A stretch of 64,000 bases of DNA, taken from NCBI RefSeq assembly GCF_037975245.1, contig NC_092569.1, positions 19,399,501 through 19,463,500 on the forward strand, read 5' to 3'. Position numbers and translations under genes: made by a program. Shown here in pieces: positions 1,561 to 61,707 of this stretch. The DNA is from Apostichopus japonicus (taxonomy: Eukaryota > Echinodermata > Holothuroidea > Aspidochirotida > Stichopodidae). Within the stretch, counting starts at the first letter, position 1, and the number at the start of each line of letters is the position of its first letter. The notes beneath the pieces are model-generated. The model did no database searches and was not told where the DNA came from. It saw only the letters and a program-made list of their open reading frames with translations.

Positions 1561-1800
1561 ATATATGGATCCCATTCTCCAGGGACGTATTATGCTGGAC
1601 TTTAAAGGTGAAGGGGGGGGGGGGCAAAATTCCGACTGATTTATAAATCTGAACTTTTATGGAAAGTCCAAAGGCGAACAAATAATTTCATAAAGGAGGA
1701 GGACTGCCCTGGGGTCATTGAAAATGACTCCTACGTAGAGGGGGGGGGGTCTGGAGGTCCTCCCCACTTTCTGTTTTTAGGTATAGACGTCAAAAGGCAC

Positions 1801-3240: not shown

Positions 3241-3426
3241 ATTACATGCAAATGACCCTAAATGAAGGTCACAAGATGACAAATTCCATTCTTGCCGGTG
3301 ACATATGCTCTCTTGCTCCTCCGTACTTTTCTTTATTCCCGCTAAACTGCTGCCAAGTGTGCTTAACATCGATTTACTTTGATTCAGTGTTTCATAAAGA
3401 ATCAGCCAGAAACCATTATTTTCAAA

Positions 3427-6400
3427 ATGTGGATCCCAAGAAAGCTACGATTTCTTATACAATTTTGTTTCTTTGTCCTGTCAAGAAATATAATCTGTTT
3501 CCACGGAGAGGTGAGTACATTTTTCCATTCTAATATTTCAGACTTTGTGGAATTTATTTTATTATAAAATTGTGATTATTGTATAAATAATTTAACGGTA
3601 ATTTTTACCTATTTCAATAAATAAAATGTTAAATATCATTTTACATACAATGTATAAAATAGTACTCACACTTTTCTTCGGTGAGGTAAATTTTAAATCC
3701 TGTAAGATTTTCTGCCTTTAGTTGGATTTAAACTTTAACAAATTTCATTAACTATTCTTAACAGGCTTGCTAAAAAAAACAGACAAAAAACAAATGGGTT
3801 CCTAAAATGTAAATGTATTAGTTTTCATCCCCAACTATAGGTAATTTATTTTATTTTTTCATTATATATTTTATACATATTTTTTCCATTGATTTCCAGA
3901 CATGAAAGCTATAATTAAAAAAAAAACTACTTGTTATTTAAAGTCAAGTGAAAAGTGTAAAGTATTTACTGTTGGCAGTTTTTAGATAGTTGTCATCTCT
4001 CAATATAGGCCATGCACGAGAAATCAAAGACACTTCTACTTTTTTTTATGGAATTCCAGAAGTAAAAGCTAGACGTTACAAATACATGGCATTTAAATGT
4101 TGCCCACTTTTAACTAACATTTGTAAGGACTATTGTTCAGAAAACTTTCTTGATTATTCTAAAAAATAATCTGTATAATAAAAGAGACTGTAAAATTCCA
4201 CTCGCGTCACAGACCGTCATTTCAAACAATATACAGACCGTAGTTAGATTTATTCTCTCAATAAGTTTGTGTGTGTTGTTCCTATTCTGATGTCATATCC
4301 CAATAAAGGTCCACACTGGTAACATATGATTCAATTTGTAGATCTATTTCAATTGATTTCCAAAAATCTAAGTACTACTAAAACATTGTATGTAAAACTA
4401 GCTCTCGTTGAACAAGCAGTTGTACAATCTATCTCCAATAAAACAGCAAAAAAAAACCCAGCAAACTCAGTGCTGTTTGATATTCTCGAAAAATGAATTT
4501 CTATTCTTTTAAATCAACCGACTGTTCATAAGGATTTTAAAAGCTATATTATATATCTTTATCTTCATTAGAGTTCTGTTAAATACAAGTTAAAGTATAT
4601 TATTTAGCGTTGATTGTTGGATTTTGAAGTCAATTTAAAGATCTTTAATGATTTATCAAATCTGATTGCGATTGATCAAACAAAGACATCTGTCTAGAGC
4701 CTGCTGCTATTTTACATTAAGAGTAAATAAAATCTCATCTCGTCCATTCTGAGAACTTTAAGTGCCTGTCATGATACTAATTTTAAGATTTACTTCTAAC
4801 CAAACTCAGACGAAACTTAATTTAGTGCATCAACTTCAAACGACTTTGACTTCAGTATTATCGTAGTTTGGAATTAAAAAAAAAATTGTACTCAAAATGT
4901 TGCATTACTTTATCATTAGCGGGCATGCATTCCTTCTGAACCAGTTACGATCAGCTTAACAAAATCTCAAATTAAATGTTCCTAAACCTATGCTGTATAT
5001 TATATATATTATAGACAACTATTAAAAATGAAGAAGAAGAAGAAGGAATTCAGAGGAATGTAAAATGATGCAAATTCTGATAGTATATGTACATTAAAAC
5101 AGTCGTGACTATATTTCTCAAACAAATCAATCTAGATTACAATTATTTTATACAAATTAAATCATATAAAACAACTTAAATACCTTTTTTTAAGATCTAA
5201 ATTTTTCAACTTCAAGATTGGGACAACTTTATCTAAACATTTACGCTGTAAACTTTTTCTGTCAAGTGCACAGTTTTGATCTACTCAATATTTTTACTTG
5301 CATTTGCGTCACCTGAAATTTCTCATACTACTCCTGCATACAACTATAACTATAAGCATACTTTACAGTGTCAAATCATTCTTCATTGTAACGATAATGT
5401 ATCCTACAAAATAAATAAATATAATATTAATCCCCTCCCTCCTTAAATAAAACAAGAACAATAAGCCAGAGAGGCGGTAGCCTAAAAGCGAAATCGTAGA
5501 GAAAACGGTCTTTAGTACAGTATCAAGATCGCTGATTCGATTCGTTGTAGAAGCTATTTTCACATTTGTGATATTATCTTTTCCTTCACACGCTCTTTAC
5601 CTTATTCACAAATCCAACCGAAAAAAAGAAACAAAGGCTTAATGTTGATATGTAGCTACAAATTCTAAGGTAAAGAAATATCTATTATTTTGGATAGTTG
5701 TCAATCAACTAACAGCGTTAAAAGAGTTTCTGTGTTAAGACTGTCAGAGTGTATCTTACGATATCTGATGCTTAATTCCCCACCAATGAACTAGACTTCG
5801 GCTAAATTCATAGCTTCAAAACAAAAAACTGAACATTTAAAGAGAAATCTGCATAGTGGTTGTGTTTGCATTTGGTTAATGTATAAGGTAAACGGATCTT
5901 TAAAATCGGCAAATTTAAATAAGACAATGTAGAAACACTGTAATTCATATCTAGGTCTATTTTTTAAAGTTCGAGATTTTTGTGTGTGTAGTAACGGCGT
6001 TCTTTAGATTGACAAGTCAAACTTCAGGTGAATGTAAATTAACGATTTGAAGAAACGTTTCCAATGGGAGATCAAAGGATATTCAAATCTCAGTTGAAAA
6101 CGAATCGGCCTCAAATTTGTTATTACTGAAATTTAGATAATTATCTACAGTTATTAAATCCTGAGAGCAATATAAGAACTTAATGAAAACTGTTAAACAA
6201 TGATCAGCATAAAGGAAATTGTATGTCTGAAGAACAGAAACTTTTGATCAAATTATCTTTTTTCACGCTTATTCTCGTGTACTTAGTTCAATGAACACTT
6301 AAAGCATTTTCAACCCGTTCACTGTAAAATAAATCAATTTTTGGCAATACTAATAAAATAAACTCTCTCTGACTGCCCCTCAACATTTTTTCGGAATATA

Positions 6401-9400
6401 CACAAATCAACACAAACCACACATTGTACTATTTTCTGCAAACAAAAGTTAACAGATTTTTTTTAAATTGGTTTAATGATCTCAACGCATTTCAACATGC
6501 AACATTTTATGACTTTTAGAACATTTATGACTGAACTCGATTCCAACTCCTATACACTAGCTTTACCTCAATCCTTGCTGTTATTAATCAAGTTAAGTAT
6601 AGGGAGGTATTTGCCATTTGCAGGAAACAGGCACAGCCGACTCAATCTCGTACACATGCCCTCATAGTTCACGACTGAAAATAAACTGTAAATAAGTAAA
6701 GGACATTCAAGTAAAATTGAAAATGTAGGGCAAAATATGTTAACTATATTTATCGCTAATAACATATGCATGATGCTTTTGATTCTCTTTTACTCAGAGT
6801 AATCAACAACTCTTTGTAGGAGCGACTGAAGGAAAAGGTCACAGTGAGTGTTTATTCATTTTCTATTAATTAACGTTTTTCTTATTTTTTCTATCTCCTG
6901 TTAATCGTACAATTTTTCATTGAATGATATTTTGTTACCTCATAATCCATGCCAAACATTTGTCACGGCAACATCTGTTAATATTATTATGATCACTCAC
7001 TCTCGTGTAATATGAGAAGAGAAATATTTCTTCTACTTATTACTTCCTTCAGTCAGAAGCAAGTAAATACACTTCGACAAAAAATAACGATAGTTTGAAA
7101 ACAATCTTCAACACTATAGATTTGAAATGTTTTCACAAATTGCATAATGAAGCCGTTCCTTATTTGTCAACACATGGTACGGTACGTTGTGAAATAGTAT
7201 GCTTGGTGGTCTTACATATCAGTCGGTAATAACGCTCATTTTTTAAATCAGTATTTATATCACTTTATATAAAAACCTTTTTAAAAGTTTATTTACATTT
7301 GACTGCTAAACTGGTAGATTATCTAAGCGACCTTTTAAAATTATCATTCAAGTTCTTTATTGCGTAAATAAGTTGCAATTTGTGTACCAAATACTTAAGC
7401 TTACATACATTTACGTCACATAAGTTCCAAGATTATATTTTGTACAAAAGCGAGAAACCTGAAATAAACTTTTCTTGGAAAGGAAGTGATGTCTGAATTA
7501 AGTTTAACGTTCAAAAGCAAATTAGTAATAGATTATGTTTTTATGTTTTTCAGAATATCATTTCATTTTGTTATTGTGTTTTTTTTGTTATAGTTTATCC
7601 GATACTAAAAACTGTTATTTTTATATCTTTCACTAAGCTTTAATTTTACCGTTTAGTTGAAATTTGACCATTTATATTTTGTATAACGTTACTGCAACTA
7701 TTTAGAGAAGTGTCGTCGTGACAAAATTTTCAATAGGTTATTGTTTTATAAAATATCACTGAATATTCAAGATATGTCAAGGCATACCAGGCTATCTTTC
7801 ATCATATCAATTGTAATATTATTTTACAAAACAACCGGTAGATTTGGTAAAATTGATCAATAAACTAAAAAGGCAAAACGTTCATCTGAGTTATTAAATA
7901 AATAAGCTTCTATATCGCGTCTAATGACGGGTTAAAGTCATATTTTCTGTTCAAACTCATCTTGTACTGTTGCAACTCATGTCTTACTATTGCAGCCTTG
8001 CTCTTGATATATTAATCTAACATTAAGTCTAGATGTAACATATTATTGTCTAATTAACTCATTTTGTGTTAACAATCTGGATGATTCACGGATGAACTTC
8101 TATATTTACATGATAACCTAATGATAATTCTTGAAGACAACTGAGTTCTCATGATATCAGAATCACCACTTGTTCTCCTCTACAGACTATTTTTTCCTTT
8201 ATCAACGTCCTGAATATCCAAGAGATTGCCAAGAAGTGTTGCATCGTTGTTCATCTACAAGTTCCAGTGGTGTTTATCTCATTAAACCAGACGGCTATGC
8301 CGAACCTTTCGAAGTCTACTGTGATAACACCGTAGATGATGGCGGATGGACGGTACGTAGTTCAAATTAAATTATGAACGTTGATGCCAGACATCAGCCG
8401 GATATTCAGCTTATTTTACCTAATTGAGCAATGTTTTATAATGTTAGCTCTCATGTTCCCCTAATTCTGAATTTTTTGATGATCATATGTACTTGTTTAT
8501 ACTTTTTCATAGAAATCATTTTAAGTTGATCACAATATACGTTTTATACTAAACTATAAAGAAAATTTTACTATTAACTATGCTAGAACTCGTTTCATTT
8601 GTCATCATTTCCATAATGTATCATAATATGTATATGAAATACTTCGTCACCCCGATGGTCAACTTCTAAAGATCTTAAAATGGGATCGCTCTGTATAGTG
8701 GTTAACAATCGGCCTTGTCACAAAATACAGAAAAAGGATTGTTGGAAACGTATATGAATGGTTGGCCTTACTAATAATTTTAATTTAACTTAATATCTAA
8801 TATGAATTATGTTCAAATTACTTGTTCTGTTATGCAGATCATACAACGTCGGTTTGACGGAACGATAAATTTTAATCGCAGCTGGGAAGATTATCAGCTA
8901 GGATTTGGGTTTCTTTCGAGTGAATTGTGGATCGGTAATAAGAGGCTTTCATACTTAACCAATCAAAAGAGATATCAACTCCGTATTGACTTGACGACAA
9001 CAGATGGTTCGTCTTTTTATGTGACGTATGACACATTCCGAATAAGCGATGACTTCAGCAACTACAAGCTCGTCAAAGCAGAAATAACCAACAGAACAGT
9101 AGGTAAATATATATTAAAAAAAAAACAACTTTCAGATATTACGTTTATTCATGTCCCAAATAAGTCTTATCTGGTCGATAAAATATTCGATATATATATG
9201 AGGAAATAAGAATGCAGGATGTGAAAGGATATGACGAATTTCAAGCTGACTAAAATGTTCACTATTAAATAGTGTGATGATACCTTTATCAATATTCAAG
9301 CTTTTATTTTTTCATTATAAGATTACTACCCTTCACCTTACTTCCTGTTTCTACTACAATGTTTTTGTTGGTATTATGTGCAGAACTTACTGATTAACTC

Positions 9401-17581: not shown

Positions 17582-20560
17582 ACCTTCAAAGTCGTCTGTG
17601 ATAATGGCGTATAAAATGGTGGGTGGACGGTACGTAGTTTGAATTAAAATATTGATGCCAAACATCAGCCGAAAATTCAGCTTTCACACCTAAATGAGCA
17701 AAGTTTTGTACTGTGATCTCTCATGTTCCCCTAATCCTTTACACTATTTTATGATCATGTTTACTTTTTTTCTTCTTTTTTTTCATCTTTTTAAAAAAAA
17801 AAATTTGATCACAATGTACATTCCAAGCTAAAATACAAAGAAAGTTTTCCTATTTACTCTGCTAGAACTCGCTTCATTTGTTATTTTTTTCCAGAATGTA
17901 TCTTAATATGCATATCAAATATTACTTGCATTCACTTCCATTGACAAACTCCGAAACCTATAGTAGATTTTCAGACGTCATCAAAAATCCCGCGGACACA
18001 CCCAAAATTTCTTACGAACCACATTGGAGTTGACCACGAAGACTAGTTTAAAAATTGATTTGTTACGCAAACCATCAACAACAAAAAAGATATCCCTGTT
18101 GCCGTATGTAACATATGTAGGTACCAAATAGTCGACAAAACTTTGAGATTTTAAGATTGGCTTGATTTTTTGCTATTGTGAGGGCTTTCCCTAAGAGGAA
18201 ACATTATATTAGCATATACATTTTTTGACGGGGGAGGGGGGGGGGGTTGGATATCAACAGACAAATATGAATGAACTCAAAATATTGGTGGTGGTAAACA
18301 CTTTCAAATTACTAAATGTCTGTATGTTCCTTCAGAACTGAATCTTTACGTCGATTGTTAGAGGTATTCCAGCGTCGCGTTGATGATTCAGAGTACAATT
18401 ATCTTTATTGGGATGACTACAAAATTGCCTTTGCTGATCGAATTCAGAATTTCTGGCTCGGAAATGAAAAGATATATATCGTGACGACCCAAAGACAATA
18501 TGAACTCTGGATCGACTTTGTTAACCTTTAAGGTGATTCTTACTACGCCAAATACGATTTCTTTCGTATCTTGGATATTCTGCAATTCTAATTTATTGAT
18601 GGAGAAGCACATTTCACACATTTGCAGATCTGGTTTTTGCCACCTTCGGAATACTAGTCGTCAGCTCAAAAACTGGTCATTGCTTTAGTTTCGTCGAGAA
18701 TTTATTGGTGTGATTCACTGATCGCTGGACTTCCTATCTGTAAGTTGGAACCTTAAATTGGCGTTCAGAATACTGCCGCCAAAATTGTAGTTGAAGCTCG
18801 TGGTACGACCATATCACAGACATTTTTATCAGATTTCATTGGTTACCTTTTTGTTCAAAGAGTTTCAAATTATTGTTGTTAGTTGAAAAAAGCCCCTCAT
18901 GGCCTAGCCCAGCTTTATTTATGTGAATTGGCTCAGTGGTTAGTTCCTGTTCGAAGTCTTCGCTAAGGTTCTATATATATATATATATATAGCGAAAAAG
19001 AAGTCTGTCACAGAGTCTAAGAGTAATGGAACATTTTTATGAGATTTTATATAAATATCATGCTTTTGATAATTTAGGTCCACGACGTTTCAACGCTTCT
19101 CCTCCATATGTCCGTTCTAGTCAAACTCATAACGTCTTTAAAAGTCGCATCAAAACACATTTATGCAAAATTCCTTTAATCTCTAATTTTTGTACTTTCT
19201 GTCATTTAAAAAGTTTATTGAGTTTCAAACATTAAAAATAATTTTAATATTGTTATTATTCCTACAAGTGACGGGAACGACACCGACAGGCTAGATGTCG
19301 GAATGACGGAAATGTAGCTAGGTATTTAGTTCCTGAATTATCAGTCCTACCGTCAATGGTGCATCATATATTATGTTTATTGAAAAACTCACTGATAGCA
19401 ATATATATTCTGTTTTGTCTCTGTTGAAAATAAACTGATTAAGAAATCGATTGTAGATTCTGGTAATTTGTAATTTGGTATTATTTTTTTGGATCCAGAT
19501 AAGGAGTTACCTGTTGTGCAAGAAGACTAATTTTTACCTGTTACAAAGATCTCTCCGGCCAAATAGCTAGTAGACCAGTGCACCTATAAAAAATTCAGGC
19601 TTTCAAAGTTAAGGCACTTCAGTTAGTAACATATAAACCCGTCATATTATTCATAACCAAATTATTTATTTTATTATTGGAAAAATGCACAAACAAAGAG
19701 AAAAGATTAGTAACCACACGCATTCGAAAGAAAGATGGATATTCATAGTTAGTTTGAATGTAATCAGACATGTAATTTAAGAACCAATCATTTTACAAAT
19801 ATATTACCCAAAAGGAAGATACGAAAGTATCAAAGTGCAGAATGATATGTACCCTACGCAAATCATCACACACACGCATACGCATACGCACACCCAAAAC
19901 CATGCGTGCAAGCAACTACTTACATGCTTGACTAGAAAAACGTCGTCTTAAAATATCATTGTATTGGAAGGATTAAACTTTTGTCATGTAAGAAAAGAGG
20001 GCTTAAAGGTGTCCACATCGTAAATGAAATATATTACAGACTATAACATTACAATGGGCATAGGCAAATATACCGTATCTGGTCTTGTATAGGAAAACCA
20101 AAAGGCTTGTAACTTTTAAGTGGAAAATTTTCTTTATTCCCCGTTTATTTTTTAAACGTATGAATAAAATAAATAAAGGCTATATCAAAAACAATATAGA
20201 TCACAAACTAAACTATTGGAAATGAGCACACATGAATGCACTTCCTTTAATTTACGACAGACCAGATCAAGGGTCTCTAACGTTACTTATGAATATTATG
20301 TTGTAAATAGCGTATACCTCGATCATGTAGGTAATTAACTTGAGAATTAAACAATATTAGCAATAGTTCAGTAGCATAACAAAATATATATATGTCTACA
20401 TACATACAGGAGTTGATAATCCCTTCCAATTTCTTGTATTTCCGTTTAGTACTGATAAAATAAATAACACTGACATTATTCTAACACATGTCAATAAACA
20501 TTTGTAATAAAACTATTTTTTCATTGCAATGGTGCATGGTAGTGCATTAACCATTTTTGT
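17582..20560 (+). pseudogene. FREP pseudogene 1 (exons 3-end and 7, intron 7)
   Basis: Positions 17582-17629 match the last part of exon 3 (GTGATAATGGC...GGTGGACG then GTACGTAG), and intron-3-like sequence follows. Without exons 4-6, this passes into intron-6-like sequence and exon 7 at 18363 (VFQRRVDD, YLYWDDYK, FWLGNEKIY). A TAA stop at 18529-18531 interrupts the exon. The exon is then cut after FFRI at about 18570 by retroelement sequence and resumes at about 19266 (GTGACGGGAACGACACCGACAG) before an intron-7-like stretch at about 19600-20350 that matches 11830-12780. A GGTGCATGGTAGT at about 20530 may be what is left of the exon 8 AWWY codons. It cannot encode a full protein. Exon 3 directly followed by exon 7 would spell one ordinary FBG domain, so it may descend from, or have reverted to, a single-FBG gene. 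Confidence 0.75.
18575..19255 (+). mobile_element. Degenerate non-LTR retrotransposon 3' end inside pseudo-exon 7
   Basis: In broken frames the plus strand reads like the C-terminal tail of CR1/L2-type reverse transcriptase ORFs: an LPPKL, GYLF, HGLAQLYLCELAQW, VPVRSLR, KKSVTES series and finally VRSSQTHNVFKSRIKTHL at about 19108-19170. An (AT)n tract at 18971-18990 interrupts it. It splits the FREP exon, whose two halves lie on either side. No target duplication could be defined. The same fragment, 5'-shortened, is at 35893-36310. Confidence 0.7.
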
Positions 20561-24400: not shown

Positions 24401-27400
24401 GTCATAATTCGAAGTTGGATAATTCTCTTCAGTTCTTATTTGTTCAGAGCAATACAAAAAAATTATTAAACATTGATCAGCATAAAGAAAATCAGATGTC
24501 TGAAGAACAGAAACTTCGGTAAATTGATAAAATTATATTGTTCTAAATATTTTTGGTATACTTACTTCAATGAAACTTAAAAGCAAATTTTAACACAGTA
24601 CGCTGTCAAACATAATATTTTGTAAAAGGAGAGAAGTAAAGTAACTCTCCCTGATTGGCCTTTCTAAATGTTCAGAATATACACAAAATAACAAAAAACA
24701 TTTATTGTACTATTTTCTGAGAAGAAAACTGAACAAAGTGTTTTTAAGTATATTTAATGATCCCAACGCATTTCAACATGCAACAATTTAAGAATTTTAG
24801 ACAATTTAGGACTGAACTCGATTCAAACTCCTACACAATAAGCTTAACTCAAACCTAGCTGTTATTACCCAAGTAAAGTATAGGAAGTATTCGCCATTTG
24901 CAGGAAACACAGCAGATTCAATCTAGAACAAATATGACCTCATAGTTCACGACTGAATATAACATGTAAATAAGTAAAGCACGAGTGAAATTGAAAAATT
25001 AGGGGAATAATATGTTTACTATATTTATCGCTGATAACATATGCATAATGCTTTTGATTCTCTTTTACTCAGAGTAATCAGCAACTCTTTGTAGGAGCGA
25101 CTGAAAGAAAAGTTAAGAGTGAGTGTTTATTCATTTTCTATTAATTAACCCTTTTCTTATATTTTCTATTTCCTGTTAATCATACAATTTCCCATCCTTT
25201 TCCAGTCAGACCTGCAGCGTGGTGGTCTACAATATGCAACCTCATATGTTCCAGATGATGTTCTCCCAACACTGGCAGAGGTTGAGAAAGCCATCAAGGT
25301 CCTCAAGAACAACAAAGCTGCTGGCCCAGACGACGTTCTGGCTGATTGCATCAAGACTGCTGCAACTGATACCACCATTCTCAGCACCATCCACAAGGCT
25401 GTGCAGTGTATCTGGTCTACAGGCATCTGGCCTTCAACGATGACATCTTCCACTTACATTGCCCTCCATAAGAAGAACGACAGAGGGGTTTGTGAAGACT
25501 ATCGCACATTGGCTCTCATAAGTCATGCCAACAAAGTGGTGCTCAACATCATGCAGTCACGTCTTCAGACTAATCTCGACGATGTAAGTGAGGTGCAGTT
25601 CGGCTTCCGCTCCGGGAAGTCAACCACAGATGCTATCTTCGCTCTTAAGACTATCACATCTGCCTACTACAGAGCCCACACCCCACTCCATCTCATTTTC
25701 GTGGATTGCAAGAACGCTTTTAACAGTGTGAATCATGCCCTCCTAATGGAGAAGCTGGAACAGATGGGGGTGGACAGAGATGTCATTAGACTCACAGAGA
25801 GACTTTATCACGATGCTGGAGGCGTCTTACAATGGAAAAATGAGACAACAGATGCTTGCAACACGCCTGTCGGTTGTAGACAGGGCTGCCCACTTTCTCC
25901 AATCCTCTTCTCTCTCTACACGGAATGCCTTATGAGGGAATGGCATGCAAGGACTGCTGGTTTGCCTGGTGCTACCATAGGAGACCGCACAGTGAAGGAA
26001 CTGAGATACGCCGATGATCTTGTCCTGTTTGCGCTCTCCGTTGTGGAAGCAGAAACGGCTCTCAACATCTTAGCGGACGTTTCCAAGCCCTATCAGCTTG
26101 TGATACACCCGGGAAAAAAACGGCTCACCTTGTCATAAAGACGGACCCGAACTCTACCGATACCATCCACCAGGGGACCTCCATTATCCCCAACGTTAAC
26201 TCATTCATGTACCTCGGCTCCACCATCACCCACAACACTGATGATACTCCAGAAATCAGCAAGCGGATCGGCATAGCCAAGACTACACTCCGCGAGTGCA
26301 AGTACCTCCGAAGCCCACACCTCTCCGTTGCGACTAAGCTTCTGGTCATCAGAGCCCTAATAATGTCTAGGTTGACCTATGGCTCTACTGCATGGTCGAT
26401 TAAGAATTCGGATGCAGCCAAACTGGATGCTTTTGGTCGTACCGTCTGGAGATGGCTGCTAGGTGTCAATTGGAGCGACCACGTTACCAACGAGTCACTT
26501 ATGCGAATGATAGCCGGTAGATGGCTATTCACCTATGACACTATTGTGCAGAGAAAAATGGACTGGTTCAGCCACATCGCCCGTCAACAGGGTCTCCAGT
26601 GGGACCTCTTGTCAGGTGCCGTTCTGGGCACAGTGAGTAGTCGTGGGCGGCCTCGGATGACCTGGTATGATAACATCAGAGCCTCAACCGGTCTCACCAT
26701 GGAGGAAGCAAAACAGCAGGCTCTTTCCCGGATTCATCTGCGGATACGTGGTCACCAACCAGCTCCACTTCGCCGGTCAACTCGCATCGCTTTGAGACAG
26801 CGTCCACGGACTCTTCAAAGTCTTTGACGATTTTCTACTACTATACAATTTCTCATTGATTGATATTGTCATATCTCATTAATCCATGACAAACATTTGT
26901 CACGGCAACATCTGTTACAATTATTATGATCACTAACTCTCTTGTCATATGAGAAGAGATATATTTCTTCTACTTATTACGTCCTTCAGTTACAAGGAAG
27001 TAAATACATTTCGACAAAAGAAATAGTGTTTTACAAATCTTCGACACTATATATTTTAACTTTGTACACATATTGCATGATAAAGCCCTAAATTATTTGT
27101 CAACATATTGTACGGTTCACGTTGTAAATTAGTAAAGGATGTGTTAAATATTTGTCGATGAATGCGCCCATTTTTTATAGGAATATTTTTATCACTTTAT
27201 ATAAAAACTATTTAAAAGTTTATTTACATTTCACTGCTAAACTTGCAGATTATCTAACCTTTAAACCGCCGATTACTAAAATAATAAGCATGGGTTGCTG
27301 GAAGCAACAATCAACTGCTTCAGCGCCTCGAATATTATCTGTACCAGTGACCAGTCGAGGATGTCTATACACTTGGTCGATGAGGTAGATACAAGTGAGA

Positions 27401-36560: not shown

Positions 36561-36944
36561 TGGTTTGTCTCTGTGGAATATGAACTTATTAAGAAAATGA
36601 TTGAAGATTCTGGTAATTTGTACTTTTATAATATTTTGTGGATCCAGATAAGGATATACCTGTTGTGCATGCAAGAAGAGTCATGTATACCTGCAAGAAG
36701 ATCTCTCCAGTCAAATAGCTAGAAGACCATTGCACCTATCACAAATTCAGGCTTTCAAAGTTAAGGCACTTCAGTTAGTAAAATATGAACTCGCCATATT
36801 ATTCATAACCAAATTATTTATTTTATTCCTGGCAAAATGCACAAACAAAGTGAAAAGATTAGTAACCACACGCATTCGAAAGAAAGATGGAATATTCATA
36901 GTTATTTTGAATGCAATCAGACATGTAGGCCGTGGGCCGAAGTA

Positions 36945-39640
36945 GGAAAAGTGATCTAAAAATTAACTTTCGTTGCAAAGTCAAGGGGTATACATGAAAC
37001 CCATTACATTTTATTAGCAATATGTATTACGTTCCAAAATCAGTTGTTCCCAAGTGTCAATGTTGCACATTAATGTTTTTTAGGCCAAAATGGCGGCAAT
37101 TTCCCCATATATATCCTGCACAAAATAGAATAGACCACAAATACCATAAAATTGATCAGAAGGAGAATCTACCTTCATGTTGAGGTCCCGCCGGCTGTTT
37201 TGAACATATGTGGAATGATAATTTGTTTAGTGGGGGAGGGGGGGTCTACTAAAAGGTCACAAAGCACTAAAAACAGAAGTAGAGGGCGCTGTCCATTTCA
37301 GTATATCGGAGCATTGCATACTGCTATGCGCAAAATTATAATTAAAATTACTTCGCGATGCTTTTCATTGTAACTACATGGAAAATCTGTCTTAGTTTGA
37401 TCATGTGCCAAACATCATTCTCCCTAGCCTCATTCTATGCACTGCAATTCCCATACCTATGATTGGTAGCTGGACATGGATATATTAAATGGTGCTTAAA
37501 ATCCTACCCCTCTCCAAAATTTCAGAGATTGAAGCCCCTCTTGAATTTAAAATATTGAGGCAAAGTTAAGGGATTGGGAAGGTATGGGAAAGGGTGAGGT
37601 GGTGTAAGGAGGGGATATGTATAAATCTAGTTTATAAATGAGGAAAGCATATGGGAGTGAAGCTCCAATGTAAACCATAAAGTGTTATGTAAAGAAGGCG
37701 AGAAAGGTGTGTTAGTTTCAGTTCTGAATTATATTATTATTGCAAAAGATATTTTTCATAATTTTTTTTTGAAGCATTTCTTTTTTACAGTTACTTTATA
37801 AAGGGCCAACACATTATGAATAAAGAAGTGTAACTAAAAACAAGCATTTAGCATATTAGGTCAACGGCATATATGAACAGTGACAGTACGCTAGTTATTG
37901 TTACACTTTTTGAACAAGACATTCAACATGCACTGAGTGAGGACATTATGTGGTACAATGATAATTACATTAATATTACCATTCAGAGAGTCAACTGAGT
38001 TGGAGATTCCTTGGAAAACAAGATTTTCAAAGCTTACACCACTTTTGACCAAAAGAGATGTAGTTGGTGTGCCTACATGCAAGTTTGAAAATGTACTTAA
38101 AATATTATGTGTACAATCCAAGACATCACAGGCACACACCATCACCAGTGCATAAATTCCTTTTTACAAATATTTTTAAGCTGAAGTAACAATTGAAAAC
38201 ATTTACTATGTCTAATAGCTACAGTATGTATACATTTTCATAGAACAGGACCTGTAACTGTAGCCGTCAAAAATTAGGACCGAGTCTTCCACGGGAGGCT
38301 GCTCTTTATTTATTCATCTGGTTTTCTTTGTTTACTTTCGTGAAAACTACAAATAAAAATAATAATTTTACAAACAACTACAATATGCACATTCTATCGA
38401 ATACATATATAATAACGAGTGAATATATCATCTATGGTAGTAAGGCTAGTCCATTCAGTGATATAGTCCCATCAAAAGTTCTTACGAAAAGAATATTTAC
38501 TATCTCTGTAATTGATGGTTATACATATTACAATTGGACAGGAAGAAGCCTTTAGGTCCGGGGTAAACTTACATCTAAACCATAACATAAAATAACGTAC
38601 CTCTTTGGACTCTTTACAAATGTCGGCTCAGTTAAGCACTCTGATAGGTGTGGCACAGATAAATTGTGTCTTAACAACATGCATGGTCGGCCTATCAGTA
38701 CAAGGCTGTGCACCCTTTCTCGAAAAATGCCGAGTGAGAGACATCTCGGCCTCGTACACAAAACAATTGAAAGTAACCATTGTGCGGTACTGTAATGAGG
38801 AGAATTCCACATCTGGGAATATTTGCCATGCAGGACAGCACGGGATTGCTGCCGAGCTCACAAATTATGAATACGAACATGTTTAAATAACAATGAATAG
38901 ATTTTATGTAAAGAAATTGTGAATCAACTGTTACAGGACCTGAAGTACATTGTACATTTTCATGAAAATTTGCAGGAATTTAGACATGGCAACTTTCCAT
39001 CATGTCGTCTCTCATGCAGAATTGCAAATTTGAAGGTCTTGAATAATATAACTACTGGAGACAGAATGTGGCCACTGTGAATTGTGTGGACTGATCTCAG
39101 CAGCTTTGGGGCAGGTCCTTGATCCATTGATTCTGTTAAAAGAGCAGATGAAGATAGTTAATATGTATTTGTGATACACAAATGGGCTTCTTTACTTCAC
39201 CTCAACTAATTTAAAGTTGCTTTCAATCACTTCAATGTTGCATAGCTGATAGATAGTTTGAAAAGAGATATGCAACATTGCAATAACTGTCCACATTAAT
39301 AAAAACGGTGACCGATAAAGCTCAAACAAAATATGCTTATTAACTTATGCTGCATATAATGAGTTTTGCAAAATTGATTATTCTACATTAATTTTTTTAC
39401 TTTACAATTCAATTATTTCATCCCTCCTCCTCCCTCCCTTATTTACTTTTAAACAGAACATGGACCTGAATTTCCATTGAAATACATTTAATAAACAAGA
39501 CAGTATGCATGTCTGTTTACTTACCGAACCATGTTGTCGTTTTTTTCAATGATATGTTCACACATGGAACGGGACTACAAGCAGTTATGTATGTTAAAAG
39601 AGCAATGTTTTGCATCATTACGGTATCATAAGTATTTGTA
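36945..39640. other. Left interior of the TIR element
   Basis: No gene could be established. Frames of 60-90 codons overlap on both strands near 37900-38150 and 38550-38890. A good minus-strand donor (AAAGAG then GTACGT) at about 38602 and a TTTTAACAG acceptor near 39140, followed by about 55 open codons, are candidate exon borders for the minus-strand gene at 41662-42428. Their phases did not join cleanly, so I leave them uncalled. Confidence 0.35.
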
Positions 39641-39642
39641 TA

Positions 39643-41603
39643 GGCCCAGGCGCGTATCCAGGATTTTGTAACCCGGGGGGGCGCGAATTACAATCTAAGC
39701 GGAGCGCCACCATCGGTTGGCGCGGAGCGTACAAGAAAATTTCTGGTTTTGATACCCCCCAGATCACCGGAAATGGCACTTCTCGGGCTTGAAAATGACC
39801 AACCAGATGTGCACTTTTGCCTGAGAATCAAGTATTTCCCAAAAGTTTTTTTTCCATCCATAACCTTTTTGAAGATTGTCACCAGTCACACATCATGTTC
39901 GAGCTCATTGCATGTCCTATGGATCATTGCTTTTGTAGGTAATTCTACGTCACGGCCCACAATATCCGAAAGCCCCACTTTTCAAGGTTTTAAGCCCATT
40001 ATTTGTTGAGAATTTGAAAATTGACATTTCTCGTGAATAAAATCACTTTTAAACATACCCATAATGTTGCACAAAATTGAATCTATGGACAACCAATATA
40101 GAAAAACCTCCTGGAACCCCTAACAGATAGGTCAAAATTGCACGAGTAGAGGAAAGTATGATGAAGAATGTTGGTGAGGAAATTTTCTAAAATTCAGTCA
40201 CAGTTAATTTATTGGTGTAGAAATATTGCAACCTCTTATATTGGCTATTATAAAACTTGGTTGAAGGGAATGAAAAATAGCAGATATTTCCGATATCAGG
40301 TATATCGAACCGAACACTACACACATAGGCGTAGGTCACGTAGGAGGCGGGGCTGCAGCCCCCCCCCCCCGCAACCCAATTTTTTCCCATTTTTTCGGAC
40401 ACCTACTGAAAGAAAAATAAATAGCAATGAATAGCTTAAAAATGATCTCCTTGGTAATTAAAATAAAGTTGTAAGCTTGGCCGACATTACTACTGTAAAA
40501 GAGAGTTTTGACATAATGGATCTGTATGCTTTTTCTCCATCTACATAAGACATTTGGTTGTTTACATTAGCATCCGGCGGTATACTGTGCAACTTTGACG
40601 GACCGTTAGGTAAACGATGCCATGCAATGTAATGACCCATGCTTGCTTATATGATATTGGCATCGAAATGTTGAACGCGCGCTTAGCGCGCGAAAAATTT
40701 TGGCTTTTTTCGGGCAAGTCATTACAGCCCCCAAATCCAATTGGGCTCCTACGCCTTTGACTACACACAAAGACAGTTTTTGAGGCTGTTCATCGTGGAA
40801 CATGCATTCAATGCTCACTGATATGATGTTATATCTGCTCTTTGCTTTACAAATTCGAACAGGCCTGTAGCGAGTAATTGCCAAGAGAGGGGCGAAGCCT
40901 GTAGGCAAACTATCTAAGCGAAGCGCCACCATGTGTTGGCGCGAAGCGCTCACTAAAAATTTTGGCCGAAAATGCCTCCCAGATCGCTGGAAATGACACT
41001 TCCCAGGCCTTGTAAGTTGCATCTAAGCATTGTCTATTTTGAAATTACTAGCGATGTCATAAAGAAAATTTGCTCGGGGGGGGGGGGGGGCGGTCGCACC
41101 CTTCCCGAAATGCGTCATGTTCCCCGACGACTCGGTCGAGTTCAAGACCAGCCACAGTTGGTTCCATATAGCACAATTGTACAATTGTTTAAGGCGTCCA
41201 TACACACACACGCGTTATGATAGACCATATATAGTATTTATATAGATACATTAGTGAGAGAGGAAAAATGGAAACTTCAAAAATGGAGTTGTCGGTGTAA
41301 GGGGTTGGGTGAGGCGCAAACCCCCTCCGTAATCCTCGATCTGTCACCGGCTACCATGTGTATATAATAGCGATTAGCGCTTTAACTATGACTGTTCCTC
41401 TTTCTCTTCCCGAGGTCTTGGCGATCTTCTACTCCCTCCTTTTCTCCTTTTTCTCTCTTTTTTCTTTTTCTTTTCCCTTCCTTCCTCTCCTTCTTTTCTT
41501 TCTTCCCCCTCCTTTCCCTTTTTTTCCCTCTTTTTTCTCTCCTCTTTTTCTTACCCGGGGGGCACGCGCCCCCAACGCCCCCCCTGGATACGCACCTGAG
41601 GCC
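39643..41603. mobile_element. MITE-like element nested in the 5.9-kb element
   Basis: The left end GGCCCAGGCGCGTATCCAGG pairs with the reverse complement of the right end, GGCCTCAGGTGCGTATCCAGG, and both abut TATA (39639-39642 and 41604-41607). The interior has two diverged direct copies of a roughly 100-bp block (about 39695-39795 and 40913-41010) with CTAAGCG(G/A)AGCGCCACCAT, a TTGGCGCG hairpin partner, and CCAGATC(A/G)C(C/T)GGAAATG. A pyrimidine tract at 41395-41555 and runs of C and G complete it. No transposase. Non-autonomous by content. Confidence 0.75.
40326..40759. mobile_element. 434-bp MITE-like element nested inside the 2-kb element
   Basis: Flanked by the 10-bp direct repeat ACTACACACA (40316-40325 and 40760-40769). 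The ends share AGGCGTAGG as an inverted repeat. Inside is a perfect hairpin CGCGCGC-TTA-GCGCGCG at 40676-40692. A 9-10-bp duplication would suit a Mutator-like mover, but that assignment is inference. Confidence 0.75.
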
Positions 41604-41661
41604 TATATTCCAACACGTACATATTTGCACTCTATTTGAAGGCAACAGACGGAAATCTTAC

Positions 41662-42428
41662 CTGATTGATCATTGTGTGTGAAGTCTCCAAAATCTGTGC
41701 GGTATCAGTTTTAGCTGTTAAATCCTCCTCTGCAAGACAGAAAATAAAGAAAGAGATTTCAACAACAGTTTTGTTGAATTGAGCCTAGGATGACGATCAT
41801 ATATTTACTTTGTGATTATGATTTACTTCAAGGCCTGTATTTAAGAGACGAGTTGTAACTGTTCAGTTGGTTTAACTCGCATAAGTTCAAAAAATATATA
41901 AACAAGGCATCTTCAACAAGACATACAGCATATTTGAAAGACCATACCAAGGGGAAAACAACTTTGAAATCAGCACCCTCTTCGTTCCCGTGACAAATTG
42001 TACACAGAACGTACATCCAGCCAACCTTCTGTTTCAGCATAGCCTGGTCTATTGAATAACACTGGTTTAGTCAAGGTTAGAACTTAGCGAGGGCTGTGTA
42101 CATTTTTTACCGCGTAGGCCTAGGCTAGTTGAGAACGACTGTGGTTACTGTAACTGTACGAACTCGAATGACACTGTTTCCAGTCGAATAGAACATTCAT
42201 TTTCAATGTAATATTTCAAGAATACTTAAATACAACTCACCAACTGATTGTGTAAGTTTAGATATAGCCCTGGAGATTTTGGAAACGTTGGTAAACTTCA
42301 TATAACATTGCCGGTGATACCCCCACGTTGTTGTGTCCAACGTCAAGTTGAGTTCTGCATTGTCAGACAAAAAATTATTGGCAATATCCCCTAATTCTCC
42401 ACCTAAAGCCTTCCATTCCTTAGCACAT
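41662..42428 (-). CDS. Fragment of unknown spliced gene within the TIR element (two exons)
   Basis: Minus-strand exon 42428-42241 is open over 62 codons (CAKEWKALGGELGD, WGYHRQCYMKFTNVSKISRA) and ends with a GTGAG donor after one base of a codon. Exon 41729-41662 follows a TTGCAG acceptor, supplies the missing two bases, runs for 22 codons (EDLTAKTDTAQILE...MINQ) and ends with GTAAG. The join is EED across the junction. Phase agreement and canonical sites argue for a genuine gene. The spaced C-x3-W and YHRxCYxxF pattern resembles a zinc-binding N-terminal region I associate with uncharacterised invertebrate proteins, but I cannot name the family. The start and the later exons were not found. 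It may be the element's own gene or a captured host gene. Confidence 0.55.
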
Positions 42429-43609
42429 CTGATTACTTAAGCTTTGGAGACATTGGTAAATGAAACATGGATAATGCACTATAATCTCATTTTCGTTCGG
42501 CCGGCCGCCTTATCACTAGTTGACGCCATGTTCAAATGTTGCCAGATGTTAAAAAGTATTGCGCAAGCATATATACGCGATTGTGATTGGTTACTCGTGA
42601 CATCATACGCTGTGTTTTCGCCTTATAAACTCTCTCCAAATTTGATTAAAATGGTAACGGTTATTACTAACAACTGCAAAAATGTGCACGTTAGGCAACT
42701 GGGAACAATCGATAATGGTGATTTCATATTATTTTCATAATTATAATGGCATTTGTTGGTAGTCCTCTCTGTGTTGCAACGAACTTAAACGATTTTGGAC
42801 TTCGGCCCACGGTCTAATGTAATTAAAGAACCAATTATTTTAAAAATCTATTACCCAAAAGGAAGATACTGAAGAATCACAGTGTAGAATGAAATGTACC
42901 ATACTCAAATCATCACAAACACGCATACGCATGCGCACACCCACGGGCATGCGCGCACACACCTACTTACATGCTTGACTAGAAAAACGTCGTCTTAAAA
43001 TATCTTAAATATCATTTAATCATGGAAGGATTAAACTTTTGTCATGTAAGAAAAGAGGGCTTAAAGGTGTCTTCATCGTAAATTAAATATATTACAGACT
43101 ATAAAATTACAATGGGCATAGGCAAATATACCGTATCTGGTCTTGTATAGGTAAACCGAAAGGCTTTTAACTTTTAAGTGGAAAATTTTATTTTATTCCC
43201 CGTTTTTTTTTTAAACGTATGAATAAAATAAATAAAGGCTATATTAAGAACAATATAGATCACAAACTAACCTATTAAAAATGAGCCCACATGAATGCAC
43301 TTCCTTTAATTTACAACAGACCAGATCAGGGGTCTCTAACGTTACTTATGAATATTATGTTGTAAATAGCGAATACCTCGATCATGTAGGTAATTAACTT
43401 AAGAATTAAACAATATTAGCAATAGTTCAGTAGCATAACAAAATATACATATGTCTACATACATACAGGAGTTGATAATCCCATCCCATTTCTGGTATTT
43501 CCGTTTAGTAACGATAAAAATAGATAACACTCGACGTTATTCTCACACTTCTCAATCAACATTTGTAATAAAAAAAAAACATTTTTGCCAAAGTGCATGG
43601 TAGTGCATT

Positions 43610-47153: not shown

Positions 47154-50100
47154 ATTTTCGTTCGTTAGATTTAAAAGTAAACCTTCGAGTGAATGTCAAT
47201 GTATTGCATTGAAGTAACGTTTCCAATGTGTAATCAAAGGATATTCAAACATTAGTTGAAAACGAATCCCCACGTTTAGATTGTCATAATTCAAAGTTGG
47301 ATAATTCTCTTCAGTTCTTATTTGTTCAGAGCAATACAAGAACTTACTAAAAATTATTAAACATTGATCAGCATAAAAAAAAATCAGAAGTGTGAAGAAC
47401 AGAAACTTCGGTAAATTGATAAAATTATATTTTTCTGGTTCAATTTGGGTATACTTACTTCAATGAAACTTAAAAGCAAATTTTTACACAGTTCGCTGTC
47501 AAACATAATATTTTGTAAAAGGAGAGAAGTAAAGAAACTCTCTCTGATCGGCCCTCCTAAATGTTCAGAATATACACAAAATAACAAAAAAACATTTATT
47601 GTACTATTTTCTGAGAAGAAAACTGAACAAAGTATTTTTTAAGTATATTTAATGATCCCAACGCATTTCAACATGCAACAATTTAAGCTGTTATTACCCA
47701 AGTAAAGTATAAGAAAGTATTCGCCATTTGCAGGAAACAGGCACAGCAGGTTCAATCTAGTACACATATGACCTCATAGTTCACGATTGAATATAACATG
47801 TAAATAAGTAAAGCAAGAGTGAAATTGAACATTGAGGGGAAAATATGTTTACTATATTTATCGCTGATAACATATGCTTTTGATTCTCTTTTACTCAGAG
47901 TAATCAGCAACTCTTTGTAGGAGCGACTGAAGGAAAAGTTAACAGTGAGTATTTATTCATTTTCTATTAATTAACCCTTTTCTTATATTTTCTATTTCCT
48001 GTTAATCATACAATTTCTCATTGATTGATATTTTCATATCTCATAATCCATGACAAACATTTGTCACGGCAACATATGTTACAATTGTTATGATTACTAA
48101 CTCTCGTGTAATATGAGAAGAGATATATATTTTTATTTTACTTATTAATTCCTTCAGTCACAAGCAAGTCAATACATTTCGACCGTAGGAATTAACGACA
48201 GTTTGAACAAATCTTCGGCATTATATATTTGAAATTTATACACAAATTGCATGAGAAGGCTATATATCAACATATGGTACGTTACACGTTGTAAAATAAT
48301 AAAGGATGCTCGGTGGTCTTAAATATTTGTCAATTCATGGTTTCATGTTTTTTCTCAGTATTTTAATATATATAAAAAGTATATAAAAGAATTAAAGTTT
48401 ATTTGTATGTTGCATATGTTGCATATGTTATTCATATACTTTGCAATTTGTGTACCAAACATTAAGCTTGTGTACATATACATCACACATGTTCCATGAT
48501 TTTTTTTCCGTACAAAGTAATAAACCTGAAATAAACTTTTCTTGAAAAAGAGTTGTAATGTCTGAATTGAGTTTTACGTTCAAAAGCAAATTAGTAATAG
48601 TTTATGTTGTCATGTAATTCAGAATGTACTCTTTTTTATTGTTTATTGTAGTATATCCCATACTCAACCTTCATTTTCATAGCTTCCACTTAACTTGAAT
48701 TTTTCCGTTCAGTTCAAAATTGACCATCTATTATTTGTTTAACGTTACAACAGCTATTCGGAGAAGTGTCTTTGTGAAGAAGTTTTCAGTAATGTATTCA
48801 TTTATAAAATATCACTAAATTTTCAAGACTAGTGAATGAATACCAGGCTAACTTTTATCATATCAATTGTAATAGTATTTTGAAAAACAAAAGTTAGATT
48901 TATTAAAACTTATCAATCAACTAAAAAGCAAAACGTTCCTCTAAGTTATATAAGAATGCGCTTCTCTATCGCGTCTAATGAAGGTTCAAAGTAATTTTGT
49001 AATACTATTTTGAAAAAAAAAACAACCTCATGTCTTACTATTGCAGTCTTGCTCTTGTCTGCTGCAGTCATGTCTGCTGCAATCATTTTTGCTGCAGTCT
49101 TGTCTGCTGCAGTCTTGTCTGCTGCAGTCTTTTCTGCTGCTGCTCTTGTCTGATGCAGTCTTGTCTGTTGCAGTCTTGTCTGTTGCAGTATTGTCTGCTG
49201 CAGTCTTGTCTGCTGCTGCTCTTGTCTGATGCAGTCTTGTCTGTTGCAGTCTTGTCTGCTGCTGCTGCAGTCTTGTCTGCTGCAGTCTTGTCTGCTGCAG
49301 TCTTGTCTGCTGCAGTCTTGTCTGCTGCTGCTGCAGTCTTGTCTGCTGCAGTCTTGTCTGCTGCAGTCTTGTCTGCTACAGTCTTGTCTGCTGCTGCTCT
49401 TGTCTGTTGCAGTCTTGTCTGCTGCAGTCTTGTCTGCTGCAGTCTTGCTGCAGTCTTGCTGCAGTCATGTCTGCTGCAGTCTTGCAGTCTTGCTATTGAT
49501 GTGTTAATCTAGCATTAAGCCGAGACGAAATATATGATTATTTAATTAAACTCATTTTGGGTTTACAAATCTGAAATATTCATGGATAAACTTCTGTCGT
49601 TACATGATAACATAATGACAAATCTTGAAGACAACTTTGTTCTCATGATATCTGAATCGCCACTTGTTCTCCTTTTACAGACAATGTTTTACTTTATCAG
49701 CGTCCTGAATATCCAAGAGATTGTCACGAGGTGTTGCATCGTTGTTCACCAACAAGTTCCAGTGGTGTTTATCTCATTAAACCAGACGGTTATGCCGAAC
49801 CTTTCGAAGTCTACTGTGATAACACCGCAGATGATGGTGGATGGACGGTAAGTAGTTCAAATTGAAATATGAATGTTTATGCCAAACATTAGCCTAATAT
49901 TCAGCTTCTTTCAAATCAATGAGCAAAGTTTTAAAATATTAGGTAGTATATTTCCCTCATCCTTGACGTTCTTTTTAAACCAAACGATTAGCAGAAAATG
50001 CTTCAATAATATTGTTTTAACATTGTTTGTTTACGTTTTTCATAAAATTAATATTAAGTTGATCCCAATGTATATTTCATACTTAAATACGAAGAAATAG

Positions 50101-57838: not shown

Positions 57839-60765
57839 TCAGACCCGATTACACTGCTTAAAGTGCTTGTCCAAAGCATTCTTAAACCCATTGACACTAC
57901 TTGCAAGTACAACTTTGTCAGGCAAACCATTCCACTCATTCACAACCCTTTTAGAAAAAAAGTTATGCCGAATATTAATCCTACTATGCGACTTTTGTAG
58001 TTTAAGACAATGACCTCTAGTGCAACTACTGTTAGCAAACAAGAAAAAGTCGGTAAAGGATAAATTGTCGAAACCATACACAATCTTGAAAACCTGGATC
58101 AAGTCCCCACGTAACCTCCTAAGCTCCAGTGTGGTGAGATTCAACAGTTGTAACCGCCTATAATAAGGAACCCTCGTTTATGAACTAATCATCCCAGTAG
58201 CCCTCCTCTGGACCTTTTCAAGTACTTCCTTATCCTTAGCAAAGTAAGGGTTCCAAGCCTGCACAGCACACTCCAGATGAGGCCTAACCAACTGCTTATG
58301 AAGCCTAACTACGATGTCCTCTTTCAGAAAACTGAAGTTCCTCTTGATCATACCTAAAACCCTATTACCTCTTTTAGCAGCTTCAAGACAATGTCTAGAA
58401 GGTTGCATAGATGAGTCAATGTAGATACCTAGGTCTCTCTCAACAGAGACCTCCTGTAACTCCACACCATTAAGATTGCATGTAAACTTTTGGTTACTAC
58501 TACCAATGTGCATTACCTTACATTTATCAATATTAAAAAGCATTTGCCACCCCTGAGACCAGGAAAAAATCTTATCCAAATCCGCTTGAAATTTCTTAGA
58601 ATCGCTTTTGGAAGAGACCTCAGAATACAATTTGGTGTCATCAGCAAACTTCTTAGCTTTACACAAAATATCTCCGTCGATATCATTTATATAGGCAACA
58701 AACAACAAGAGACCTAATACAGACCCTTGTGGAACCCCACTAGTAACGTTCTGCTAAGAAGAAGCACAGCCTTTAATTACCACCCTCTGTTTCCTATTAC
58801 CAAGCCAATTCCCGATCCAAGACAGTAAATTCCCTATGACACCCATGCTCTTCAGCCTAAGTAAAAGACGCTGGTGGGGAACTTTATAAAAGGCCTTCTG
58901 GAAATCCAGGAACACAACATCTACAGACCTCTGCCTATTTAGTGAACTTGTTACATTTTCCATAAACTCAAGGATATTAGTGAGACAAGACCTTTTTTGA
59001 CAAAAGCCACGTTGAGACTCTCTGATCAAAGACTGACTGCTGAAGTGACAGACCATAGACCTTTTAACAATAGACTCTATGACCTTGCAAACTACACTAG
59101 TGAGACTAACGGGCCTATAATTACAGGGCTTAGACTTATCACCCTTCTTGAAAATTGGGGTAATATTAGCACATCTCCAGTCCCTAGAACATAACCTTCA
59201 TCCATAAATTTACTAAAAACCAACGAGAGTGGAACGCAGAAATGGTGTGCAAAAGTCTTCAACAAATACGGATGGATTGTATCCGGTCCAGAAGCTTTAG
59301 AAACATTTAGCTGAAGCAGCTCCTTTAAGACAACCTCATCCGAAAATAAGACCGTATCCAGTTTAGGCCTATCACTGCCCCCCCCCTGAAAATCTGGAAT
59401 ACTACTCGTATCTTCCCTTGTGAAACCGACACAAAATAGTTGTTCAAAAGATTTCCAAGATCCTGACTATCAGTAACTATATTATCAGCCTGTGGTGCCC
59501 TAAGGGAAACAATTGCATCTTTTACTTTCTGCTTTGACCTGACATAAGAAAAGAAGGCCTTTGGGTTATCCTTAATTTTTAGTGCAATGCTTTTTTAGAA
59601 ATTCAATTTTGCATCAGAGACTAAGCATTCTACCTTCAGCTGATGAATTTTAAACTTGGCCAAAAGAGATTCAGATTTAGTCCTCATAGACAACTTCCAC
59701 ATTCTACGTTTTTGCCTAATTGCACATTTCTTATTATTAACTTTCTTATTCATCCAGTGAGGCATACTGCGATTCTTCCACGGAACATGATTTTCCATAA
59801 TGACCTTTAATTTATCAGCAAAACAAATCCAAAACTGAGAAGCACTCATATCTCTAAACAAATTAATCCAATCTGTACCCTTTAGTAAAGTTTCAATCTC
59901 CTCTGTATCTGATCTCGAAAAATCAGGGACTTTTTCATTGCTAACAGAATTTACGACTTTGCAAACAACATCAAAAGCTAGTATATCATGATCACTAGTT
60001 CCTAGTTTTCCTAGACCCGTCAAATCAACAACATTGCTTGTATTAGAACTCAAAACAAGATCCAGGATGTTATCCCCCCTAGTAGGGAAAGTAACATGTT
60101 GATGTAAAAAGGAATCTTGCACAACATCTAGAAAATTACTACCCTTCCTACTACTAGAACCATCTATCCAATTAATGTCAGGAAAATGAAAGTCGCCCAT
60201 TATAACAACATCACCGTTAGCTGCCTTTCTAATTGAATCAAACAGCACGACATCATTATCATCGCTGCTGCTAGGAGAGCGGTAAACAACACCCACAGTG
60301 ATAACGTCACTGAACCTCTTGGAGTTGTTTGTGGAAAACTCGCACCAGACAGAATTAACAAAAGCCCCTTGCAACTGAGATTTCTCAACACTTACAATGT
60401 CATCCCTAACATACAGTAAAACTCCCCCACCAACCCCATTATGAGTATCCCTTCTGTCCTGACGATACACAACATACCCCGGGTGAGAAACCTCAGCACT
60501 ATCAATGTCCTAGCTCCCTTAACCAAGATTCGGTGATACCAAACACATCCGGTTTCAGATCCTCAAGAAGCACAGGAAATTCAGCAAAATTTTTACGAAT
60601 ACTTCTAGCATTGGTAAAGACAATCTTCAGCTTATCCCTGAAACTATGTACCTTAGAATGCCTCCTAAAGTTAGAACTATGACTATCACTTTTCTTGCTT
60701 TCAAAACGCCTATAATCGCCTCCACTAGGAACATAATCTTTATCCAAAATTATTCCTAACCTCAT
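57839..60765 (-). pseudogene. CR1-like ORF2 (endonuclease + reverse transcriptase), inactivated
   Basis: Reads from 60765 downwards. Endonuclease: IVFTNARSIRKN, DVFGITESWL, GVGGGVLLYVRDD, VVYRSPSS, VIMGDFHFPDINW, LGTSDHDILAF. Reverse transcriptase: FLDFQKAFYKVPH (catalytic Asp), TSGVPQGSVLG, FADDTKLY. C-terminal tail: TTLELRRLRGDLIQVFKI and FSKRVVNEWNGLP. Damage: a one-base frameshift after ESWLREL near 60500, a TAA after AKLNF at about 59595, a TAG just before QNVTSGVPQG at about 58754, and a stop after GMISS at about 58178. It cannot encode an intact enzyme. Confidence 0.88.
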
Positions 60766-60776
60766 CGCCCCTCAAT

Positions 60777-61707
60777 TTAGTTTAAACATAGCTGTTCAAC
60801 AGAGTAATTCACCATCCTACCAAACAACGAGGCCCCAGTATTAGCTAAGTGCAAACCATCCCTGGCGAACAAATCCCTTCTACCCTGGAAAGAAGACCAC
60901 ATGTCAACAAATGTGAAGCCGAAGTCGGCACACAGACTATACAATAAACCATTCAAAGTTACAATCTTATCTGACAGAACCTTGTTGTCAAATCTTGGCA
61001 ACAAACTACATATGACAACTTTAGCCCGAGTTGATGCTAGTTGACACATCAAGTCGTGGTACCTAGACTGGATAATGTTTTGTGACTCCTTCTGCACATT
61101 ATTGGTGCCTACGTGGACCGCAACCACCTCCTCATCTGACACGATTTTGTTAACCCTTTTACTGACATCCTGGATTTTAGCACCTGGCAAACATACCCTG
61201 ACCCTTTTAGCTTTATCCGCCCTGCAGAACTCTCGGTCTACATACCGTACTAGTGAATCCCCACACAATACCATTCTTCCTTTCGACTTCTCCTGTTCCC
61301 ACTGACCGCTGTTTACAACCACACTACCATCTTCTATCACATCACAATCATCACGCACTTCGTCCACTACTAGCCACTCACTATTTTCCTCCTGGGAGAC
61401 TTCATTCCCATCATCAACATCACGCAACTCCTCCACAGGTAACACTTCAAATCCAAGTTGGAACAACCTCGCAACACTCCCTATCAGCAACTGCACTACT
61501 CACAGCCCTACTACTCCCAACTTCCGTCCATACACAACTACAGCTATTCAATAGCTCCTCTAATTCCTTAAGTTTCACACACTTATCGCAAACAAACACA
61601 ATAGCTTCACTAGACGCTGATTTAAAATCACATTCCAAGCCAGATATCTCAAACTCGACCCACATATTACACGCATCACAGCAGACTAAACGATCAGGCA
61701 CAGCCAT
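60777..61707 (-). pseudogene. CR1-like ORF1 with PHD-like and SGNH-esterase-like parts, frameshifted
   Basis: 61707-61447 starts at MAVPDRLVCCDACNMWVEFE and continues to FVCDKCVKL, a paired-cysteine, PHD-like pattern. 61496-60777, in another frame, carries an SGNH hydrolase series: VLCGDSLVRYVD (GDS block), VAVHVGTNNV (GTN block) and RDGLHLANTGASLFG (DxxH block). The two frames overlap at about 61447-61496, where a frameshift has separated them. A role in binding the RNP or membranes has been proposed for such esterase domains, but is not shown here. Confidence 0.8.

Follow-up and report, generated by a model that had tools for sequence, protein, structure and literature searches.

The 64,000-nucleotide stretch of the Apostichopus japonicus genome analysed here (contig NC_092569.1, positions 19,399,501 to 19,463,500; hereafter the window) carries at positions 36926-42816 an inverted-repeat element of 5,891 bp with two minus-strand exons on board. 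We propose, with a probability of roughly 85%, that it is a non-autonomous deletion derivative of a cut-and-paste transposon family, most likely Academ (AcademX), which carries the start of its own transposase gene and was inserted after duplication of the local gene array. An earlier note on this DNA had suggested either a little-known DNA transposon family or an element that captured a host gene. The first suggestion stands in outline, with multiple copies, terminal inverted repeats (TIRs), 3-bp target duplications and empty sites, and Academ is the most likely named superfamily.

The element ends exactly at the coordinates first assigned to it, and its TIRs measure 18 bp, TAG[G/A]CCGTGGGCCGAAGT, two bases more per end than the 16-mer GGCCGTGGGCCGAAGT, which lies at 36928-36943 (plus strand, exact) and 42799-42814 (minus strand, one mismatch). 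No further GGCCGTGGGCCGAAGT site occurs elsewhere in the window at up to three mismatches; a shuffled control gave a mean of 0.07 matches, and two matches were reached in 0 of 100 shuffles. The one-base difference between the two repeats is family-wide: each of the 17 distinct copies has one end that starts with TAGGC and one that starts with TAGAC. The boundaries and the target site are as follows:

36926..36943, plus strand: left TIR, TAGGCCGTGGGCCGAAGT
42799..42816, minus strand: right TIR, TAGACCGTGGGCCGAAGT, at the 5' end of the element's gene
36923..36925: left copy of the target-site duplication ATG, defined by the single ATG in four of four paralogous empty sites
42817..42819: right copy of the target-site duplication ATG
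19768..19777, plus strand: paralogous empty site, ACATGTAATT

The empty site near 19768, already pointed out in the earlier note, is indeed paralogous to the flanks of the element (87-90% identity) and lacks the insertion, and three more such sites align near 12.1k, 31.4k and 53.14k. All four hold a single ATG, whereas the filled site has an ATG at each side. A TA-only target duplication, in the style of mariner or ISL2EU, was considered and is ruled out by the 3 bp found in these four sites and in 15 of 17 copies. The window from about 3100 to 64000 is a tandem array with a repeat period of about 18-23 kb and segments mostly 73-93% alike; the genes encoded there combine fibrinogen C-terminal domains with EGF, TIL and TILa domains. 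In three array units the insertion site has a fibrinogen-domain exon on either side, with exons at 11256, 30676 and 52415 and last exons at 13118, 32369 and 54375. In the unit at 19.7k the exon copy (18364-18576) is interrupted by an in-frame stop, and just upstream of 36.9k no fibrinogen exon copy was found, so that the gene copy that received the element looks decayed.

Further copies of the ends, whose absence would by the earlier note's own criterion have refuted its reading, are numerous across the genome (671,581,487 bases in 35 contigs). The exact 16-mer occurs at 20 sites against none for the reversed control, and the 18-mer, at up to two mismatches, at 63 sites against 2. Inward-facing TIR pairs within 11 kb number 21, compared with 0.016 expected by random placement, and 21 sites are unpaired. 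The left 2.7 kb of the element has at least 51 matches, a lower bound with 40 of 113 candidates scored; 10 other copies span essentially all of it at 92-96% identity, and the right 1.2 kb has 48 genome matches. A perfect 3-bp target duplication flanks 15 of the 17 distinct copies with both ends (chance of at least 15, 1e-25), and the duplications seen are ATG, CAT, TCA, ATT, TAG, TAT, TGT, TAA, CAA, CGT and CAG. Nine copies of about 4 kb lie 0.6-2.7% from the majority sequence; among them the window copy, taken with its nested insert excluded, diverges most. One copy, L022 at C9:19577539-19582569, was rejected as an independent insertion, since its 1.5 kb of left flank and its nested insert also match the window at 96.5-98% identity. 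This copy, about 141 kb distant, is a segmental duplicate of the window insertion and is still counted among the 21 TIR pairs.

The length of 5.9 kb, compared with about 4.0 kb in most close kin, is due to insertion and not to cargo. Three nested elements were delimited:

38255..38933: nested repeat of ~680 bp, with an 8-9 bp duplication, CAGGACCT/G, at 38246-38254 and 38934-38942
39647..41598: hAT-like non-autonomous element of 1,952 bp, with ends CAGG[C/T]GCGTATCCAGG and a duplication AGGCC at 39642-39646 and 41599-41603
40326..40759: third-level nested element of 434 bp inside the hAT-like one, with a 10-bp duplication, ACTACACACA

The ~680-bp repeat is common to the subfamily, absent from the longer relative L041, and found alone at four other places. 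The 1,952-bp insert, which we take to be hAT-like from its CAGG ends, is absent from copies L010 and L029, and the uninterrupted target is readable in L010.

The two minus-strand exons correspond to the beginning of the transposase gene that belongs to the element itself, an N-terminal and zinc-finger-like region; the remainder of this gene is seen in two longer relatives. These, L041 (7,776 bp) and L042 (6,818 bp), have both ends in common with the window copy and retain a coding core of about 4 kb that is absent from it. L041 has frames of 598 and 762 amino acids (aa) across the stretch deleted in the window copy; its core is interrupted by one stop and one frame change, and that of L042 is more broken. 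The coding remnants and the deletion are placed as follows:

42241..42529, minus strand: exon 1 remnant of the transposase gene, a zinc-finger-like N-terminal region with two in-frame stops common to the subfamily
41662..41729, minus strand: exon 2 remnant, in phase with exon 1 over GT/AG sites (putative splicing) and displaced by 2 nt against the longer copies
39053..39133, minus strand: predicted third coding piece, truncated at the deletion junction and in the same frame as in L041
39050..39053: junction of the internal deletion, at which about 4,343 bases are present in L041

In L041 and L042 the first exon is free of stops and opens the gene. A homologous N-terminal exon precedes a ~1,570-aa frame in a sister element, L043, inside an element bounded by TIRs and target-site duplications. 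Downstream of its second stop, exon 1 of the window copy shares 88% protein identity with L041, 82% with L042 and 36% with L043, and 18 columns of the alignment are invariant across all four. These observations bear directly on the proposal that a host gene was captured, in which the element would be a Pack-type DNA transposon and the two exons would be host exons. Good splice signals and the lack of a Pfam match in the two exons fit that proposal as they would fit any gene of an unrecognised kind; the first exon nonetheless occupies the same position in L041 and L042, where it is free of stops and is followed by the core, and its homologue precedes the long frame of L043. Capture of a host gene is thus very improbable, and that half of the earlier suggestion is given up.

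The exons join in phase, as the earlier note had described, through good GT/AG sites that are kept in other copies: among 13 aligned copies, the first donor is present in all, and the exon 2 acceptor and donor in 12, L033 having no second exon. The window copy has 3 extra nt at its own exon 2 acceptor. The lengths of exon 2 in the deletion subfamily and in L041 and L042 are 2 nt apart, and the second half of the two-exon peptide is therefore out of the longer copies' frame. The phasing of this 'spliced gene' thus holds, but an intact gene is not what the window copy carries, since exon 1, read from the in-frame ATG at 42529, contains two stops. The same two stops are found in 11 of 11 deletion-derivative copies and in neither of the two longer ones, and four of the 11 have a further stop or frame break (of the 17 copies, 13 were compared, all except L008, L024, L025 and L036, which are short or rearranged). 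The shared stops make the gene fragment look dead, and indicate that the beginning of the gene had been disrupted before the subfamily spread.

The same comparison bears on the idea that the truncated gene still yields a short N-terminal DNA-binding repressor of transposition, for which the KP form of the P element is a model. The zinc-finger-like exons and their splice sites survive the deletion, and the deletion form accounts for 11 of the 13 copies compared, as such a role might predict. Given that every one of those 11 carries the two early stops in exon 1, and four of them another stop or frame break, we consider a surviving repressor hardly credible and retain the view that the window copy is a derivative with a broken gene start.

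The absence of a known transposase signature, remarked upon at the outset, is correct for the window copy and has a twofold explanation: the ~4.3-kb deletion relative to L041 took the coding core, and even in elements that retain it this core is hardly recognised by Pfam, NCBIfam or PDB. The profile search with the two-exon peptide that the earlier note had proposed was uninformative: neither the peptide nor all six frames of the element gave anything convincing against Pfam (best E 1).

As for the mechanism, the deletion derivatives would have been moved in trans: they retain their ends and a disrupted beginning of the gene, and for such mobility would need nothing beyond the ends. By analogy with other cut-and-paste transposons, a transposase supplied by an intact relative would recognise and bind the 18-bp TIRs and excise the element, which would then be joined to target strands cut 3 bp apart; in the window, this insertion would have come after the duplication of the local fibrinogen-domain gene array. 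Because all the cores seen in this family are broken, movement in trans is a step that we infer.

A genome search with the 762-aa frame of L041 returned at least 74 matches, with 59 of 530 candidates scored, and six of these, at 44-49% identity, have open frames of 1,551-1,572 aa. Three matches have essentially equal score. The sister copies L043 and L044 (both 302-8693) are 99.99% identical over 8,392 bases and diverge beyond; they end in TAGAC..GTCTA and are flanked by the 3-bp duplications ACA and GTA. In L043 the stop-to-stop frame spans 1,572 aa, and the HxxCYxxFT motif recurs in an N-terminal exon that is separate from it. The sister family therefore resembles that of the window in its TAGAC..GTCTA ends, its 3-bp duplications and the arrangement of a short N-terminal exon and a long core, but differs from it by its long open frame and near-identical copies, where the copies seen of the window family have broken cores. 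The near-identity of L043 and L044, together with the ~1,570-aa open frame, suggests that this sister family transposed very recently in this genome and has been more recently active.

The long protein, of ~1,500 residues, begins with HxxCYxxFT motifs near its N-terminus, continues with a core that bears no annotation and a pattern like that of FEN/XPG nucleases, and closes with a TCR-type C-terminus. The C-terminal part of L043 is 47% identical to L041 over 468 columns, and the motifs WIVDGM, FVTD, HEEADTR, KSPDTD, GCDS and SFYGKGK are common to both. Residues invariant between the two follow the order D..D..EEAD..SPDTD..GCD, which we take to match the catalytic acids of FEN/XPG nucleases. 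The Cys-rich C-terminus matches Pfam TCR at 3.3e-07 in L041 and only at 0.19 and 0.052 in L043, in which a DUF6589 match is weak and under the cut-off (Pfam, 0.049). NCBIfam and PDB searches of the long protein gave nothing significant, and a PDB profile search with the two-sequence L041/L043 C-terminal alignment gave nothing.

For the Academ superfamily and its AcademX lineage, PMC10045372 and PMC4455052 cite Kapitonov and Jurka (2010) and Kojima (2020). Academ (AcademX) is quite probably the right superfamily for the present elements, given their 3-bp duplications, XPG-like pattern and Cys-rich C-terminus. FEN/XPG-like acid motifs and a C-terminal Cys-rich region in a long protein are, we assume, Academ features, and the C-terminus of L041 and L043 may correspond to the Academ 8-Cys zinc-binding region. 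Passages of PMC10045372 give AcademX target duplications of 3 or 4 bp, a range that includes the 3 bp of the window family, and assign a helicase or a nuclease to the two lineages of Academ. The curated bivalve Academ elements covered in a passage of PMC10294476 have a mean length of 5,565 bp. The window copy differs from Academ in having no coding core, and the longer copies here measure 6.8-8.4 kb.

Several points weigh against our interpretation. L018 and L033, two of the 17 copies, have no matching 3-bp flanks, and no intact transposase source was seen in this family, L041 having a stop and a frame break and the cores on C16 having stops. Neither an XPG nuclease nor a DDE transposase is recognised in the coding core by Pfam, NCBIfam or PDB. 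The comparison also included no reference Academ protein, and both the XPG residue pattern and the definition of Academ as 'Cys8 plus XPG' are assumptions of ours.

Assignment to another superfamily, namely, Zator, IS3EU or PIF/Harbinger-ISL2EU, is unlikely. PIF/Harbinger and ISL2EU elements duplicate TWA or TA at the target, whereas the duplications of the window family are varied and mostly neither. ISL2EU TIRs usually start with GG and those of PIF/Harbinger with A or G, according to passages of PMC4482050; the TIRs in the window start with TAG, and show the GG of ISL2EU after their first two bases. As presented in parts of PMC10045372, Zator makes 3-bp target duplications, as does the window family, and IS3EU / GingerRoot elements have TA..TA termini, again as here, but usually 6-bp duplications in place of 3 bp. 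With regard to Zator, the coding core (L041 and L043 frames) matches no Pfam transposase model. The frames of L041 (598, 177 and 762 aa) and of L043 are likewise unmatched by a DDE transposase model in Pfam, although a missing match is weak evidence. There is also a small chance that the transposase of the long relatives represents a lineage separate from Academ, in a little-charted superfamily; its members would then be marked by TAG..CTA ends, 3-bp duplications and recent activity in this genome, and the window element would be one of its passengers with dead coding capacity. Placement in Academ remains our preferred reading.

Other searches returned no relatives: nothing was found by an Rfam scan of the window at gathering thresholds, by a scan of viral contigs with the TIR, the peptide and a degenerate motif, or by a scan of the genome contigs collection with the peptide and the motif. 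Elsewhere in the window, a non-LTR retrotransposon fragment at 25196-26842 (RVT_1, 2.2e-32) lies in one array unit and is absent from the paralogue near 48010, and its flanks suggest a duplication of roughly 10 bp, ATACAATTTC. A LINE-type element on the minus strand at 57839-61499 contains frames for a reverse transcriptase and an endonuclease; upstream of these, at 60777-61499, lies another frame, with matches to GDSL-lipase and OSK domains. At 49044-49494, a 15-bp tandem minisatellite produces long repetitive open frames on both strands.

For the annotation of this genome, the 'gene' of the window element is best regarded as a broken transposase start, to be masked and not annotated as a host gene. 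The family is also a clear example of how a subfamily with an internal deletion spread although the beginning of its gene was already disrupted, alongside sister families with long open frames and near-identical copies. More generally, a transposase that is almost invisible to Pfam, NCBIfam and PDB may easily be mistaken, in animal genomes, for host genes of an unrecognised kind.

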